Assembly (NCBI GenBank): GCA_020974905.1
Contig: CP087563.1
Span: 4,898,001-4,962,000, forward strand
Length of the DNA stretch: 64,000 nt
Direction: 5' to 3'
DNA from: Planctomycetes bacterium syqfu
GTDB taxonomy: Bacteria > Planctomycetota > Phycisphaerae > Phycisphaerales > Phycisphaeraceae
Positions 761 to 47,174 of the stretch are shown here, piece by piece; the stretch's first letter is position 1, and each line of letters opens with the position of its first letter. The notes below the pieces were generated by a model that searched no databases, was not told the DNA's origin, and saw only the letters and a program-made list of their open reading frames with translations. The position numbers and the translations under genes were made by a program.

Positions 761-1804
761 ATGAAACTACTCGAAAAACTCTGCGTCACGCCGGGCGTGC
801 CGGGTCGCGAAGACCGGGTCGCAAAACTCATCCAATCCGAGGCCAAGGGCTTGTTCGACAAGTTCACCACCGATGCCATGGGCACGCTCATTGCGTATCG
901 CAAGGCGCGGCCTGCCAAGGGCAAGAAAGGGCCAAAGAATCGCAAGAAGATCATGCTTTCCTGTCACATGGACCAGATAGGTTTTCTGGTGCGTCATATT
1001 GATGAGAAGGGATTCCTTCGTGTTAACGCAGTTGGTGGATTTGATACACGAAACCTCTTCGCCCGTTTGGTGACCGTCTGCACGAAACACGGCGACCTGC
1101 CGGGCGTGATGAATCCCGGTGGCAAGCCGGTGCACATCGCATCGCCTGAAGACCGCAAGAAGGTGCCGGAAATTGAAGAGCTCATCATCGACTTGGGCAT
1201 GACGGCAGACGAAGTCAATGACAAAGTCCAGATCGGCGATATGGTCGTGATCAAAGCACCGTTCACCGAAGTGGGCAACATGATCGTCAGCCAATGCCTG
1301 GACAACCGCATTGCCTGCTGGCTTGGGATTCGCTCAATCGAAAATCTCAAGCATCATGACTGTGATATTTATGTTGCCTTCACCGTGCAGGAAGAAGTCG
1401 GATGTCGCGGTGCGGGTCCGGCAGCAGCACAGATCAAGCCCGACATTGCAATCACACTCGACACCACGCTTTGCTGCGATACCCCCGGCGTCCCCGGTGA
1501 TCTGGCCATCACCAAAGCAGGCGACGGCGCAGGCTTGATGGTCATGGACTCAGGCAGCATCACTGACCTCAAACTTCTTGAAGAGTTCGAAGCAGTGGGC
1601 AAGAAAAAGAAGATCAAGACCCAGCGCACCATTCTTCCCCGTGGTGGTACGGATTCCCTTGCCATCCAACGCAAGGGCGAAGGCTATCGTGTGATGACGT
1701 TGGTCTGCGGTACCCGCTACATCCACACCGTCACCGAGACGATCAACAAGGACGACCTCTTTGCATGTCGCGATCTGTTGACGGCGTATTTGGCGCAAGC
1801 GTGA
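761..1804 (+). CDS. M42 family metallo-aminopeptidase
   Basis: A 347-residue M42 family (glutamyl/deblocking aminopeptidase, formerly 'endoglucanase M') enzyme of usual length. It should be cytoplasmic and remove N-terminal residues from peptides using two divalent metals. The expected ligands are visible: His69 and Asp71 in SCHMDQIGF, bridging Asp181 in CLDNRIA, the Glu211-Glu212 pair in VQEEVGCRG (catalytic base and ligand), Asp234 in ITLDTT, and His322 in RYIHTVTE. The GGTDSLA segment typical of the family is also present. There is no signal peptide. The start is an ATG without a Shine-Dalgarno but directly behind a -10-like element. It stands alone and ends in a strong hairpin terminator. 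Substrate range cannot be told from sequence. Confidence 0.92.
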   Translation: MKLLEKLCVTPGVPGREDRVAKLIQSEAKGLFDKFTTDAMGTLIAYRKARPAKGKKGPKNRKKIMLSCHMDQIGFLVRHIDEKGFLRVNAVGGFDTRNLFARLVTVCTKHGDLPGVMNPGGKPVHIASPEDRKKVPEIEELIIDLGMTADEVNDKVQIGDMVVIKAPFTEVGNMIVSQCLDNRIACWLGIRSIENLKHHDCDIYVAFTVQEEVGCRGAGPAAAQIKPDIAITLDTTLCCDTPGVPGDLAITKAGDGAGLMVMDSGSITDLKLLEEFEAVGKKKKIKTQRTILPRGGTDSLAIQRKGEGYRVMTLVCGTRYIHTVTETINKDDLFACRDLLTAYLAQA

Positions 1805-9570: not shown

Positions 9571-9685
9571 AAGACAAGTAACCACAGATGAACGCAGATA
9601 AACACAGATGTTCCGATTCGGAGCGTCTGTTTTTTTATGTCTTTATTTGTGTTCATCCGTGTGTATCTGTGGTTAAAAATGTCTT
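9571..9685. repeat. Long imperfect inverted repeat, family A copy 1
   Basis: The left arm at 9571-9610 and right arm at 9647-9685 are near reverse complements built on the word CCACAGATGAAC and ACACAGAT, with AAGACA at the outer ends. The internal segment is about 35 bases. It fills the gap between the pseudo-receiver gene and argH. A second copy of the same arms lies just after argH. Confidence 0.8.
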
Positions 9686-11210: not shown

Positions 11211-11349
11211 TAACCACAGATGAATACAGATAAACACAGATGATCAGTTTGTCACCTTGGCAATTTTCTTACCCAATCCTGAATCTGTGTCTTGATCTTT
11301 TTTCTTATCTGTGTTCATCTGTGTTCATCTGTGGTTACATGTCTTGATC
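11211..11349. repeat. Long imperfect inverted repeat, family A copy 2
   Basis: The left arm at 11211-11243 and right arm at 11305-11337 are near reverse complements with the same CCACAGATGAA and ACACAGAT words as the copy before argH, and the same GTCTTGA outside the right arm. The internal segment is about 60 bases. Together the two copies bracket argH. Confidence 0.8.
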
Positions 11350-42012: not shown

Positions 42013-42040
42013 GATGATGCGCGATCATCGCCGATGGCTT

Positions 42041-42123
42041 TTACCACAGAGTCACAAAGTCACAGAGAAGAAAATGAGTCTTGCTTTTCTCTGTGTTACT
42101 CAAAATCTCTGTGTCTCTATGGT
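42041..42123. repeat. Inverted repeat, family B copy 1
   Basis: The left arm 42041-42068 (words CCACAGAGTCACA, CACAGAG) and the right arm 42086-42123 (words CTCTGTGTTACTC, CTCTGTGTCTCTATGGT) are near reverse complements. Just inside the left arm is AGAAGAAAATG. The right arm is in frame with the gene that follows. Confidence 0.75.
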
Positions 42124-42160
42124 CCAACGATTGAAGTTGGCATTGTCCATGAGGCTTTCC

Positions 42161-44359
42161 ATGAATCCGAAAATGAGACTGCATTGGCAGCTTGCATTGT
42201 TCATGACAATATTGATGACGGGGGTTTGCTTCGCTCAGTCGCCGGAGATTTATTTCGACCGCGATATCATGCCGATTTTCAGTCAGGCCGGATGTAATGC
42301 TGCGGGGTGTCATGGCACGCAGGTCGGGCAGGATGGTTTTGCGCTCTCCCTTTTTGGCGGCGAACCCCAGTCGGACTTCATGGCCATCACGCATGCTGCT
42401 GACGGACGCCGGATCAATCGCGTGGAACCGGAGCAGTCACTGTTGCTACTCAAGGCGACCGGCCAGGTTCAGCATGCATCGGATCGCAAACTCAATCCCA
42501 AATCACTTGAGTACATGCAACTGCTCGGCTGGATCAAACAGGGCGCAACCCGTGATCCGGAAAAACAACCCAAACTCCAAAAGCTGGCGGTCACCCCCGA
42601 TCAGTTGATCACCGAAAAGGGACACAAGCAATACATCGCTGTCACCGCGCAGTACTCCGTCGGTGATGCGTTGGATGTGACGCCCAACTGTCGTTACACC
42701 TCCACCGATGAGAAAGTCGTCACCGTCGACAAACTCGGTGGCATGACCATCACCGGCTACGGGCAGGCATGGATCACCGTCACCTACATGGGCAAGACGT
42801 CATTGATTCAAGTCATCGTCCCCCAACCTCTCCGCAGTGAATTCCCCAAAGTCGCACCGAATAACCAGGTTGATGATCTGGTCTTTGCTCAGTTGCAGGC
42901 TTTGGGGATCCCGCCAGCAAAACTCTGTACGGATGCGGTTTTTGTTCGTCGTGTGTATCTGGATGTCACCGGCAGGCTGCCCGCCGAAGAACAAGCCAAA
43001 CAGTTCCTTGCTGACACCGATCCTGCCAAACGCAGCAAGCTTATTGACACGTTGCTGGCTTCCGATGCCTTTGCGGACTTTGCATCGCTCAAGTGGTCGG
43101 ACCTGCTGCGAATCAAGAGTGAGTTTCCTTCCAATCTCTGGCCTAACGCGGTGCAGGCGTATTACCAGTGGGTCCGTTCGAGCATCATTGCCAATAAACC
43201 CTATGACCAGTTTGTCCGCGAGTTACTCGTGAGTGCTGGCAGCAACTTCCGTGATCCGACTTGTAACTACTACCGTGCTGTTGCTGACCGTGATCCACAG
43301 GGCTTTGCAGAACAGACCGCCCAGGTCTTCATGGGGGCGCGTCTGAGTTGCGTGCGTTGTCATGCACATCCCACCGAGAGTTGGTCACCTACTGACAACA
43401 AGCAGATGGCAGCGTTCTTTGCCAACGTGAAGTTCAAGAACACTCAGGAATGGAAAGAGCAGATCGTCTACCTGCAGACATGGAATCGTCTGAAGGATGC
43501 AGCAGGTAAAGAGGTCGATCTGGTCCCATTGGGCGGTGAGAAGATTGATGTTCCCAAAGGTGCCAAAGACACGCGTGAAGCTTTTGTGGATTGGTTGACG
43601 GATCCGAGCAATCCCTGGTTTGCAAAGAACATCGTCAACCGCGTCTGGTATTGGCTTAATGGTCGGGGCATCATTCACGAACCGGATGATATCCGCCCGT
43701 CCAACCCGCCGAGCAATCCCAGGTTGCTTGCGTATCTCGAAAAGCAGCTTGTCGAAAATCACTACGATTTAAAGCATATTTACCGTCTGATACTCAACAG
43801 CCGGACGTATCAGCTTTCTTCCATCACCACGCAGGCCAATAGCTGGGACACGCAGATGTTCTCGCATTACATGCCAAGACGTTTGACCGCTGAACAGATG
43901 ATGGATGCGATTAATCAGGTGACACAGACGGATGATGATTTTGTCAGCCGCATCCCCGAACCGTTCACCAAACTGCCACAGGGCACGCGTGCTGTGCAGC
44001 TTGCCGATGGCAGTATCGGCCTGCCGATTCTCCAGCTTTTTGGTCGCCCGTCGCGTGACAGCAGCTATGAATCCGAACGCTGCAATGACACGTCCATGAG
44101 TCAGGCGTTGTACATGATTAATGCTGAAGAGATCTCACGCAAGATTTCACGTAGCCCGTATCTGAAGCAACTACTCAAGACGCAGAGCGATCAGGACGTG
44201 ATCAGCGGGGTTTACATGACAGCATTCAGTCATCAACCCAGTGAAGAAAAAATGCAACAACTCCTGGACTATTTCAAGCAGGTTGAAAACCGCCGAGATG
44301 CGATCAGTGACCTGCTCTGGGCTGTACTCAATAGTCGCGAGTTTATGTTTAATCATTAA
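42161..44359 (+). CDS. Exported DUF1549/DUF1553 protein with cytochrome-like N-terminus
   Basis: A 732-residue planctomycete-type protein. A signal peptide (MNPKMRLHWQLALF ... GVCFAQ) comes first, then a haem-like region with CNAAGCHG (C-x4-C-H, the form usual in this group), a bacterial Ig-like (Big_2) segment near residues 150-240, then DUF1549 (VRRVYLDVTGRLPAEEQAKQ). A CVRCH haem motif lies in between, and DUF1553 forms the C-terminal part. The function of these paralogous proteins is unknown; they nearly always come with a DUF1501 protein. Start 42161 has GAGG six bases upstream. The frame is open far upstream through an inverted repeat, and earlier ATGs (42014, 42074, 42149) exist but would add a non-signal-like N-terminus. 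Confidence 0.88.
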   Translation: MNPKMRLHWQLALFMTILMTGVCFAQSPEIYFDRDIMPIFSQAGCNAAGCHGTQVGQDGFALSLFGGEPQSDFMAITHAADGRRINRVEPEQSLLLLKATGQVQHASDRKLNPKSLEYMQLLGWIKQGATRDPEKQPKLQKLAVTPDQLITEKGHKQYIAVTAQYSVGDALDVTPNCRYTSTDEKVVTVDKLGGMTITGYGQAWITVTYMGKTSLIQVIVPQPLRSEFPKVAPNNQVDDLVFAQLQALGIPPAKLCTDAVFVRRVYLDVTGRLPAEEQAKQFLADTDPAKRSKLIDTLLASDAFADFASLKWSDLLRIKSEFPSNLWPNAVQAYYQWVRSSIIANKPYDQFVRELLVSAGSNFRDPTCNYYRAVADRDPQGFAEQTAQVFMGARLSCVRCHAHPTESWSPTDNKQMAAFFANVKFKNTQEWKEQIVYLQTWNRLKDAAGKEVDLVPLGGEKIDVPKGAKDTREAFVDWLTDPSNPWFAKNIVNRVWYWLNGRGIIHEPDDIRPSNPPSNPRLLAYLEKQLVENHYDLKHIYRLILNSRTYQLSSITTQANSWDTQMFSHYMPRRLTAEQMMDAINQVTQTDDDFVSRIPEPFTKLPQGTRAVQLADGSIGLPILQLFGRPSRDSSYESERCNDTSMSQALYMINAEEISRKISRSPYLKQLLKTQSDQDVISGVYMTAFSHQPSEEKMQQLLDYFKQVENRRDAISDLLWAVLNSREFMFNH

Positions 44360-44486: not shown

Positions 44487-45866
44487 ATGCTCGACTTTTT
44501 AGATCGTCACCTGACACATGATTGTGAAGGGATCAGCCGACGCAGTTTTCTGACGGTCGGTGCGGCTACGGCAACGGGGCTGACACTCTCAGGCTTTCTT
44601 GCTGCACGCCAGGCACAGGCTGCTGCTGATCTGGCATCAGGCAAGATCGTCAACAAAGCCCCCAAGGCCAAGAGCGTCATCCAACTCTGGATGGGCGGCG
44701 GTCCCTGTCATCTGGACACCTTCGATCCCAAACCCGAAGCCGGTGAAGACTATGCAGGAACCTACCGCAAACCGCTGGAGACCAACGTCAAAGGCATGCG
44801 GATTAACGAGAAGTTTGAGCACATGGCCAAGTGTGCAGACAAGTATGCCATCATCCGTTCGATGACGCATCACACCAACGGCCACGAAACCGCTACCTAC
44901 ATGATGCAGACCGGCACGCCTCCCGGTGGTGAACTGGTTTACCCAACCTACGGCGCGGTCGTCTCCATGAAAAAAGGTGAAGCAAACGATTCGAACCTCC
45001 CACCCTACATCATGGTCCCCACGCCCATCGGCCGCATCTCTGCTTCGGGTTTCCTCGGTGCCAACTACGCACCTTTCAGCACCGGCGGTGATCCCAACAG
45101 CAAGGACTTTCGTGTCGGCGGGATCGTTCCTCCCAAAGGCATGACCGAAGGACGCATGTCCCAACGTCAATCACTGTTGGAGATGGTCGACGACTTTGCC
45201 CGTGAGCTTGAAGGTTCACCAGCGATTGATGCGATGAGTGAACACCAGAAGCAGGCATATGGCTTGATTCTCGGTGATGCCAAGAAGGCCTTTGATATCA
45301 GTGAAGAGTCCGACGAAACGCGTGACCGATATGGTCGCAACAAGTTCGGGCAATCCTGTTTGCTGGCGCGTCGTCTGGTGGAACATGGCGTGCCGTTTGT
45401 CACCGTGAACAGTGGTGGCTGGGACACGCATAAGAAACACTTTGAGTTGATGGATCAGAAACTCCCACCGTTGGATCAGGCATTTGCTGCATTGCTTCAA
45501 GACCTGTCTGAACGTGGCCTTCTCGATAGCACCGTCGTTGTCTGGGGCGGTGAGTTTGGTCGTCGGCCCAAGATCTCGCGTGAACCACCATGGAACGGCG
45601 GACGCCAACACTTCTGCACCTGCTTCAATGCCGTCGTCGCAGGTGGCGGATTTGCAGGCGGCCAGGTCGTCGGTTCAAGTGACCGTCGCGGCGAAACCGT
45701 GCGCGATCGCCCGGTCTACCCGTGGGACCTGACCTCCAGTATTTACCAACTCCTGGGTATCGACCCCAGCGGTCAACTGCCACACCCCCATGGCTGTGTC
45801 GCTTACGTCACACCCTCAACCGGTGGCAAGGTGCAATCCGGCGGACTGCTCCAGGAGATTATGTAA
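44487..45866 (+). CDS. Tat-exported DUF1501 protein
   Basis: A 459-residue DUF1501 protein, an alkaline-phosphatase/sulfatase-fold family of unknown activity. The N-terminus carries a twin-arginine signal (ISRRSFLTVGAA, Arg18-Arg19) and then a hydrophobic stretch to AAR QAQA, so it should be folded before export. Family blocks seen are IQLWMGGGPCHLDTFDPKP, MTHHTNGHETATYMM, NSGGWDTHKKH and VVVWGGEFGRRPKI; the His and Asp residues in them likely bind metal. It almost always pairs with a DUF1549/DUF1553 protein, as here, 127 bases after it. Some family members bind metals, but no reaction is established. The hairpin-like CTCCGAGCGAAGCGAGG just before the ATG is part of the inter-gene repeat region. 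Confidence 0.9.
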   Translation: MLDFLDRHLTHDCEGISRRSFLTVGAATATGLTLSGFLAARQAQAAADLASGKIVNKAPKAKSVIQLWMGGGPCHLDTFDPKPEAGEDYAGTYRKPLETNVKGMRINEKFEHMAKCADKYAIIRSMTHHTNGHETATYMMQTGTPPGGELVYPTYGAVVSMKKGEANDSNLPPYIMVPTPIGRISASGFLGANYAPFSTGGDPNSKDFRVGGIVPPKGMTEGRMSQRQSLLEMVDDFARELEGSPAIDAMSEHQKQAYGLILGDAKKAFDISEESDETRDRYGRNKFGQSCLLARRLVEHGVPFVTVNSGGWDTHKKHFELMDQKLPPLDQAFAALLQDLSERGLLDSTVVVWGGEFGRRPKISREPPWNGGRQHFCTCFNAVVAGGGFAGGQVVGSSDRRGETVRDRPVYPWDLTSSIYQLLGIDPSGQLPHPHGCVAYVTPSTGGKVQSGGLLQEIM

Positions 45867-45897: not shown

Positions 45898-46010
45898 AAC
45901 CACAGAGTCACAGAGACACAGAGAAGAAAATGCTATATACGACTCATCACGCCAAATTCAATTTACCTCAACTCTGTTTGCTGGCTCTGTGCCTCTGTGT
46001 CTCTGTGGTT
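45898..46010. repeat. Inverted repeat, family B copy 2 (right arm inside a coding frame)
   Basis: Bases 45898-45923 and 45985-46010 are reverse complements with two mismatches in 26. The internal part again contains AGAAGAAAATG, as in copy 1. The right arm reads in frame as ALCLCVSVV in the WD40 gene. Confidence 0.9.
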
Positions 46011-47174
46011 CATCCATTGAGATTACATGCCCAGACACTCAGCTTCCCTGCCACACAAGCAGAGCAGCAGTATGTGATTCAAACAACCTTGCAGACGCGA
46101 TTGAATCTCCGCAGTGTTTGTTTTTCAGCCGATGGTAAGACACTTTATGTCGGAGCCTACAAACACGTGCTTGTCTGGTCACTGAGCGATGCCAAACTCG
46201 CAGCAACATTCACCGATTCCGCTCTGAGCAACATGGTCACCGCCATGTCGCTTTGCAATGATGGTAAAACGCTGGCAGTCAGTGCTGCGACTCCGGGAAG
46301 CAGCACCTCACCCATCGTGCTCTTTGATACCAACACCAACAAGAAGTCCGCGACGCTGCAGCAAGCCGGTGACACCGTTCAATGCATGCTCGCGACAAAG
46401 GCTGGCAAGCAACTGTTCGTCGGAACCTACGATGGGCAGTTGACCCTCTGGGATGTCCAAGCGCAGAAAGTCGAAAAAGAGTTCGCTCAGCAGGGTTCTG
46501 CGATCACGGATATTACTGCTGATGACAAGGAAAACTGGATCGCCGTCTGCAACCATGCAGGGCAGGTCGAAGTGTTTGATGCAGCGGATAAGTATCTGAG
46601 CATCTTGAGTACGACACTTGACGATGCTGCGCGTGCGTTGTTTTTTGAGAACGGTAAAACAAGCAATCTCGCGGCCGCCGTTGCAGGTGATAAGGAAGCA
46701 GCTGTCCGACTGATCAATACCAAGAATCCGAGAAACAAACGCAAATTCACCAACACACCCGCCATGCCGTTGGCCATGTGTCAGGCAGAGAACAAGGCCG
46801 TCTATCTTGCGGGTTCGGATGGGACAATCCTCTCCTGGCAACGCATGAACAAGACGGACAAAACTTTCAAAGCACACACCGATTGGGTGACAGGCATGGC
46901 ACTAAGTCCCGATGGCAAACTGCTTGCCTCGGTGAGTCTGGATGGGACCACGCGACTGTGGGACCCGAAGGAAGGTTTGCTCTTAGCCACCTTGTTACAA
47001 CTCCAACCGCAGTCCGATGCCTGGTTGATGATCACCAGCCAGGGGACTTTCAATGCATCATCGCCGGACGTGGTGACGTTTTACAATCAAGCTGATTCGC
47101 TGCAGGCCGGACTTAAAAGCCAGTGGCAGTCACCAGAAAAAGTCAGCCAACACCTTGGCTTTAACGCCAAGTGA
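45930..47174 (+). CDS. Exported WD40-repeat protein
   Basis: A 414-residue beta-propeller protein. After a signal-like segment (LCLLALCLCVSVVHP, probable cleavage near LHAQ) come about six or seven WD40-like blades: LNLRSVCFSADGKTLYVGAY, VQCMLATKAGKQLFVGTYDG, VTGMALSPDGKLLASVSLDG and others. It should be a periplasmic scaffold, perhaps for the adjacent DUF1501/DUF1549 proteins. The only sensible start, ATG 45930, lies inside a long inverted repeat, and the repeat's right arm encodes the hydrophobic core of the signal peptide; the next in-frame ATG is about 100 codons further on, inside the propeller. It overlaps the following gene's upstream region by a few bases. Confidence 0.82.
   Translation: MLYTTHHAKFNLPQLCLLALCLCVSVVHPLRLHAQTLSFPATQAEQQYVIQTTLQTRLNLRSVCFSADGKTLYVGAYKHVLVWSLSDAKLAATFTDSALSNMVTAMSLCNDGKTLAVSAATPGSSTSPIVLFDTNTNKKSATLQQAGDTVQCMLATKAGKQLFVGTYDGQLTLWDVQAQKVEKEFAQQGSAITDITADDKENWIAVCNHAGQVEVFDAADKYLSILSTTLDDAARALFFENGKTSNLAAAVAGDKEAAVRLINTKNPRNKRKFTNTPAMPLAMCQAENKAVYLAGSDGTILSWQRMNKTDKTFKAHTDWVTGMALSPDGKLLASVSLDGTTRLWDPKEGLLLATLLQLQPQSDAWLMITSQGTFNASSPDVVTFYNQADSLQAGLKSQWQSPEKVSQHLGFNAK

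Follow-up and report, generated by a model that had tools for sequence, protein, structure and literature searches.

A palindrome at the 5' end of a WD40 gene

The window analysed here is a stretch of 64,000 nucleotides, bases 4898001-4962000 of a genome (G000) that consists of a single contig of 7.38 Mb. Within it, a DUF1501 gene is followed by a WD40 gene and then by a gene with a PPC domain, and a palindrome spans the 5' end of the WD40 gene (Table 1). As the original prediction had stated, its arms at 45898-45923 (aaccacagagtcacagagacacagag) and 45985-46010 (ctctgtgcctctgtgtctctgtggtt) are complementary with two mismatches; around ATG 45930 the pairing can be extended to 29 nt at 90%. The proposed in-frame reading was likewise correct, ALCLCVSVV being codons 19-27 of the ORF of 414 amino acids that this ATG opens. 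The start codon had been located inside the repeat; it does lie within the palindrome, between the arms, but is part of neither arm.

Table 1. Coordinates of the palindromes and of the genes and leaders next to them, in window positions.
Feature	Position	Strand	Remark
Family-C (ACAGATG) palindrome	9582..9672	+	not entered by the open frame of any downstream gene
Family-C (ACAGATG) palindrome	11214..11334	+	not entered by the open frame of any downstream gene
Family-B copy	42041..42123	+	in frame with PSCyt2/PSD1 gene, probably unused as signal peptide
Likely true PSCyt2/PSD1 signal peptide	42161..42235	+	3' of the repeat; by eye
DUF1501 gene	44487..45866	+	upstream gene, stop ~33 bp 5' of the repeat; twin-arginine type leader by eye
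Left arm of family-B (CACAGAG) palindrome	45898..45923	+	5' untranslated for the WD40 gene
Palindrome loop	45924..45984	+	contains start codon (45930-45932) and n-region codons
Right arm	45985..46010	+	codes LCLCVSVV, which forms the h-region (hydrophobic core) of the predicted signal peptide
Predicted signal-peptide codons 1-34	45930..46031	+	MLYTTHHAKFNLPQLCLLALCLCVSVVHPLRLHA; orthologue comparison, cut before QTLSFPAT by eye
WD40 beta-propeller protein gene	45930..47174	+	

Two in-frame start codons, ATG 45930 and TTG 45978, lie 5' of the right arm and keep the hydrophobic leader, which is lost if translation starts at GTG 46005, inside the arm, or at TTG 46017. The 12-residue hydropathy of the core is 3.03, compared with 2.22-2.81 in leaders without repeats. 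The n-region has a net charge of +1, and with the cut placed by eye the residues before it are LHA, followed by QT. Folding of the RNA of this copy predicts a strong hairpin (-50.4 kcal/mol, z -5) whose loop contains the start codon; this long hairpin could hamper translation. Searching the window against Rfam at gathering scores returned no match.

Dispersal of the palindrome

For comparison we used three congeneric MAGs (Phycisphaeraceae/Phycisphaerales), NAT22 (G001), NORP295 (G002) and UBA7800 (G003), and as a distant relative PL23b_bin.82 (G041) from another family of the same order. The palindrome is one copy of a dispersed family, family B, whose typical member consists of ACCACAGAGNCACAGAGNCACAGAG, a short variable loop and CTCTGTGNCTCTGTGNCTCTGTGGT. 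With up to two mismatches, the half-site CTCTGTGNCTCTGTGG occurs 114 + 116 times in the 7.38 Mb genome, versus 12 + 22 times for the reversed control; at up to three mismatches the window holds 10 sites (shuffles: mean 1.82, largest 7). Half-sites with at most one mismatch numbered 113 + 112 in NAT22 (control 3 + 1) and 170 + 153 in UBA7800 (control 3 + 4). Exact 24-mers were present in 10 of 46 genomes, with 19 to 91 in the window's genome, NAT22, UBA7800, PL23b_bin.82 and a member of another genus of the family (G014), and one to three in each of the five others; NORP295 had none. A related family, family C, is represented by 104 + 99 half-sites in the window's genome (control 1 + 3). The internal ATG, noted at first in two copies, is not a family trait: loops were highly variable among the copies compared.

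We then surveyed 159 family-B copies, those of the window's genome from the first 100 places listed and those of NAT22 and UBA7800 from 40 regions each plus the orthologue loci; genes were called by our own codon-usage method and signal peptides judged by eye. No copy fell inside a called gene body. Tandem genes flanked 100 copies, convergent genes 26 and divergent genes 18, and 15 were unplaceable. Copies lay a median of 31.5 bp from gene 3' ends, compared with 89 bp from the coding bodies at 5' ends, and in 73 of the 100 tandem pairs the copy lay nearer the 3' end of the upstream gene. At orthologous sites the arms were preserved while loops and nearby bases often changed, even where the flanking genes are ~90% identical, although some pairs (L051/L180, L034/L178) were near-identical throughout.

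This placement behind genes, together with conserved arms around loops that turn over, is what would be expected if the palindrome were kept for a function at gene ends, as a terminator, a stabiliser of mRNA ends or a protein-binding site, with any coding use secondary and the state of the arms reflecting that function or conversion. We give such a role somewhat less than even odds. It does not compete with use as a signal peptide at 45930, and it leaves unexplained the solitary arm within the leader of a NAT22 gene described below.

Identity of the arms between the window's genome and UBA7800 was considered as proof of coding selection and set aside, since orthologous copies in non-coding DNA also retain their arms between species; arm identity does not by itself show such selection. 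In three intergenic pairs (L045/L179, L048/L117, L056/L189) the arms are near consensus and the loops differ, with flanking genes ~90% identical, a pattern that suggests re-insertion or arm-directed conversion.

Hydrophobic reading of the arms

Right arms read LCASVSLW, SVPLCLCG or LCLCVSVV; left arms are strongly hydrophilic. Among 271 arms, 81 had no stop in any of the three frames and a mean hydropathy that stayed at 1.0 or above even in the least hydrophobic one, compared with 283 of 92,164 background 26-mers. Arms are not always open in all three frames, as only 104 of the 271 were, because an A spacer creates TGA. The arm consists of CTCTGTG units, and these give hydrophobic residues in every frame, apart from the TGA that arises in one frame with an A as spacer base. 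The 12-residue hydropathy of repeat-made cores ranged from 2.02 to 3.03. Since the element is palindromic, its structure implies that a hydrophobic arm would face the next gene downstream in either orientation of insertion. These two properties would be what enables a copy to take over a signal peptide.

The WD40 leader in related genomes

A comparison of orthologues had been proposed as a check on the coding role of the arm. NAT22 and UBA7800 carry the repeat at the orthologous site, with the arm in the identical frame. The leader is MLYTTHHAKFNLPQLCLLALCLCVSVVHPLRLHA in the window's genome, MRYTTHHAKFNLPQLCLLALCLCVTVVHPLRTHA in NAT22, with its core from the orthologous repeat (LALCLCVTVVHPLRTHA), and MLDQRYSKLLQSSLRFLTLCLCVSVVNSNRLKA in UBA7800, again with the core from the orthologous repeat (FLTLCLCVSVVNSNRLKA); in each case QTLSFPAT follows. 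In NORP295, MIKNGFNRYFLICVYSGVLCLTVVNCLSPLSTLHA precedes the same QTLSFPAT. The left arm is not recognisable at this locus and the core, LCLTVVNCLSPLSTLHA, is still hydrophobic; the right part of the leader looks like a decayed arm of family B or of family C.

A repeat-free orthologue with an unrelated signal peptide had been named as evidence that would count against the repeat. PL23b_bin.82 has one, with an ordinary leader (MKHIITSLMVLLVIGAACA), in a genome that holds family B elsewhere (9 + 10 exact 24-mers). With 36% identity and a host from a different family of the order, this orthologue does not refute the role of the repeat, and its unrelated leader fits replacement.

Between the window's genome and NAT22, the 34 signal-peptide codons differ by four synonymous and four nonsynonymous changes. 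The resulting dN/dS of 0.32 is not significantly below 1 (Fisher P=0.11), so that selection on the signal peptide is suggested but not proven. Synonymous divergence was 0.17 in these codons versus 0.50 in the mature part, which suggests that the leader DNA is also held for some other reason, for example conservation at the DNA level or gene conversion. We discarded the idea that conservation at WD40 is due to a conserved mRNA hairpin: the left arm is shorter in UBA7800 and not recognisable in NORP295, and a TCT to ACT change in the NAT22 arm has no partner change.

Based on these comparisons, our preferred reading, to which we assign a probability of roughly 80%, is that a copy of a MITE-like palindrome landed at the 5' end of the WD40 gene, whose product would be exported, and captured the signal peptide of that gene. 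One copy of an element that is normally intergenic and dispersed would have been inserted there; the loop would have come to supply the start codon and n-region, the gene-proximal arm the hydrophobic core and the old gene the cleavage region. The resulting peptide would export the WD40 protein, and an older signal peptide would have been replaced by the insertion.

A scan for relatives of the WD40 protein gave ten loci, namely the three congeners, PL23b_bin.82, an Acidobacteria MAG (L256) and five partial matches; no relative was found in the viral contigs scanned. The Acidobacteria relative (L256:4850-5210) matches WD40 residues 7-409 at 30% identity. Its leader, VSCLCVFVSLCLCVEPTFSLAAG, is read from the right arm of a CACAAAG/CACGAAG palindrome, a different unit, which lies 3' of what appears from the sequence to be the end of a DUF1501 gene. 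The case is weaker, no more than a hint, as its start would necessarily be TTG or GTG.

Repeat-built leaders of other genes

A second case concerns a DsbD-like gene (DsbD_TM and thioredoxin-like domains above the Pfam cut-off). In the window's genome, its repeat yields MAFTTESQSYGVQDRVRNHFSFYLCVTVTLWLILSSLNSPKANA followed by QNLF, with the arm in a frame that differs from that of the WD40 gene and the left arm translated too. A repeat is likewise read through in frame in NAT22 and looks decayed in UBA7800, and in NORP295 no repeat was seen and the leader (MTRRFMIVLLSMLFYGVMPLAMA) is ordinary. An upstream ATG common to these genomes could be the true start; the arm is included with either start.

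Further cases lie in a gene cluster, B-A-D, in which B has no Pfam family and A is prenyltransferase/squalene-cyclase-like. The cluster came to attention because the survey flagged A and B of NAT22; among the members in the window's genome only D was unexpected. The start of gene B of NAT22 is at an ATGA overlap; its leader, MIKHLLRHFEIFSVSLCLCGSAILLRPATA followed by EDLP, is read from a solitary family-B right arm, here in the third frame, and gene A of NAT22 takes its core from a complete family-B copy. In the window's genome, each of the three genes (B, A and D) starts within a family-C copy (arm ATCTGTG units) that contains a nested third repeat, whose ATGTCAAT provides the start codon. 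Family-C arms were also found at gene A of NORP295 and gene B of UBA7800. Gene A of UBA7800 has a family-B copy just 5' and a family-C-like core; in its gene D a left arm gives the start and n-region, not the core. The leader of gene D in NAT22 crosses three kinds of repeat, and genes B and D of NORP295 have no clear arm within the leader. Most of the twelve gene-by-species cases appear to have a repeat-built leader, and the repeat used varies by species. In 19 further regions, picked mainly for solitary arms, we found no additional leader case.

Judged by these sequences, the same takeover appears to have occurred at at least four genes besides the WD40 gene, the DsbD-like gene and the three neighbours, involving two repeat families and all three frames; insertion would then have been repeated within the genus.

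An origin without insertion, whether by convergence of T-rich hydrophobic signal-peptide codons on the repeat sequence or by gene conversion that copied repeat sequence over them, strikes us as unlikely. It would accommodate the DsbD repeat tract, where only 106 of 179 columns are identical between the window's genome and NAT22 while the flanks reach 88-95%, and the occupation of the same gene by different families in different species. Two-armed palindromes, as found at WD40, DsbD, A, B and D in the window's genome, would however not be made by convergence of a signal peptide; conversion may have acted.

Two observations concern the nested repeats themselves. In the leader of NAT22 gene D (L121 ~812-1190, minus strand), a CCCGC..GCGGGAATGACG inverted repeat, AATCCGAAAT units and a ATCTGTGG arm are nested. 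At L219:507-2741 (G000:C1 ~4817406-4819640), three successive genes each start in a composite repeat, in which a GAGCACC palindrome is nested within an ACAGATG one; the nested palindrome is itself dispersed, with 51 matches in the genome, some of which are both strands of one place.

Frequency of co-option

The 159 surveyed copies gave 141 pairs of a copy and a downstream gene, and in 37 of these the frame of the gene was open into the repeat. Judged by eye, seven of the 159 copies, from three genomes of the genus, are used as signal peptides: WD40 in all three genomes, the DsbD-like gene in two, and A and B in NAT22. Among them, WD40 of the window's genome was the starting find, and WD40 of NAT22 and UBA7800 and the DsbD-like gene of NAT22 were fetched as known orthologues; DsbD of the window's genome and A and B of NAT22 were found unprompted. 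The other 30 open-frame copies seem to lie before genes of cytosolic or membrane proteins that start downstream, with RimO, HisD and an ABC ATPase among the products identified, or before genes of exported proteins whose leader is separate from the repeat. For family C, 24 copies formed 15 pairs, of which four were open and three gave signal peptides. In G014, 23 copies formed 16 pairs with five open frames, and none of the 23 served as a signal peptide.

The copy at 42041-42123 is probably not used either. As had been noted, GAAGAAAATG occupies the corresponding internal position of this copy, which is in frame with the ORF at 42014-44359, reading MSLAFLCVTQNLCVSMV. That it also supplies a secretion signal could not be upheld: a complete separate leader, MNPKMRLHWQLALFMTILMTGVCFA, lies downstream in the same genome, and the PSCyt2/PSD1 orthologues of NAT22 and UBA7800 lack the repeat within the 260 bp before the mature part, where they have hydrophobic leaders of their own. 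We therefore did not count this copy as a signal peptide. The broader idea of a repeat that supplies start codons and secretion signals is thus supported at 45930, by its orthologues, is not supported at 42041 and applies generally to a minority of copies only. With seven of 159 copies in the genus and none of 23 in G014, this is occasional co-option and not the job of the repeat.

Arms are poor in stop codons and open frames are common, mostly before genes that seem to start downstream, and most 5'-end REPs of three species are treated as untranslated in the REP work (available text of PMC3733652); nevertheless it is quite improbable that the WD40 copy is only 5' untranslated or intergenic sequence, with translation beginning after it, the protein cytosolic or otherwise exported and the open frame a matter of luck, given that neither GTG 46005 nor TTG 46017 leaves a signal peptide and that a hydrophobic leader directly precedes the mature part in all four genomes of the genus and in PL23b_bin.82. 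The arm at the cytosolic RimO is in differing frames in the window's genome and NAT22, and the WD40 frame is the same in three genomes; this control is weak, as a signal peptide would tolerate a change of frame too.

Sources of export signals

Signal peptides are thought to be easily replaced, and the origin of new ones is rarely seen. In the planctomycete studied here, several secreted proteins appear to owe their signal peptides to pieces of a short, scattered palindromic repeat, suggesting that export tags can be built repeatedly from non-coding repeats. We regard the phenomenon as real and unusual: a dispersed palindrome apparently serves as a secretion signal, recurrently in one genus, with good comparative support. 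One natural source of signal peptides thus seems to be visible, with sister species providing before-and-after pictures, and the origin of a targeting signal becomes directly testable. For annotation the finding carries a warning in both directions. Trimming repeat-derived N-termini as mis-called starts would make exported proteins look cytosolic; conversely, keeping every repeat-derived N-terminus would be wrong for most genes.

Relation to known repeats

Rickettsia palindromic elements (RPE; RPE-1 in R. conorii) are also dispersed palindromes that are read in frame within proteins (available text of PMC3733652). Here, the repeat has an open frame that continues into conserved genes at WD40, DsbD-like, A, B and D and would be translated with them. 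The RPE peptide, however, is an addition to a protein, placed within the ORF or at one of its ends, whereas here the arm itself would form the core of a signal peptide.

Like family B, REP/RAYT elements are short palindromes, mostly intergenic and mostly behind genes, sometimes paired or in the N-termini of ORFs, and the accessible part of the same paper considers many N-terminal REPs as possibly extragenic and not codogenic; the term 'signal peptide' is absent from the paper (PMC3733652). REPs carry a GTAG or CGTC tag, but family-B arms begin with ACCACAGAG, and neither tag was found at the ends of a 24-copy alignment, which runs ACCACAGAG...CTCTGTGGT. The window's genome has six PF01797 matches to RAYT-type genes, none within 2 kb of a family-B copy among those listed, which cover part of the 230 half-sites.

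MITEs such as NEMIS, ERIC and RUP are described in the available text as 70-300 bp long and non-coding, with terminal inverted repeats and often adjoining coding sequences (PMC3733652). Family B is likewise short, non-coding, multicopy and dispersed, with inverted repeats. It differs in that its arms consist of phased 8-10 bp units and that its putative full-length relatives encode GxxExxY proteins, not a classical transposase. Among the titles and abstract openings returned by a literature search that was in part too broad, none dealt with bacterial signal peptides derived from repeats.

Palindromes and GxxExxY elements

Some arms enclose a gene for a GxxExxY protein (TIGR04256, PF13366 PD-(D/E)XK). 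In the window's genome, NAT22 and UBA7800, all nine GxxExxY genes lie within inverted repeats of short phased units of the CACAGAG/ACAGATG kind (two with CACAGAG arms, one with ACAGATG and the others with related units), with scores of 15-41.5 compared with a maximum of 12 at 200 control positions. Most of the palindromes surveyed are, by contrast, too short to contain that gene. The portion of the published text on GxxExxY available to us mentions no such repeat. The gene was present in 70 of 149 genomes across the phylum Planctomycetota. We fetched 30 loci and skipped six near contig ends; an inverted repeat (score >12) was found at 19 of the remaining 24 and was absent at five, versus none of 144 controls taken from the same loci. 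The flanks of these genes (L287-L295, L297-L324) are made of phased 8-10 bp units, with the unit family differing between genes.

Taken together, these loci seem to represent a large class of elements that bear a nuclease gene and have MITE-like offspring, and the short palindromes may be non-autonomous relatives of GxxExxY PD-(D/E)XK elements, which would then be their source and are the candidate mobilising partner. That GxxExxY drives the spread of the palindromes is a guess, but the tie between the two offers a lead on how the repeats spread. The chances seem to us evenly balanced that GxxExxY-related palindromes are recurring donors of secretion signals, such that an insertion upstream of an exported protein can swap its signal peptide in one step.

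Two copies in the window's genome (L042:3025-3109 and L043:3002-3086, at 2.84 and 3.13 Mb) are identical together with 15 flanking bases and have neighbour genes of similar size, perhaps the result of a recent duplication of a larger segment.
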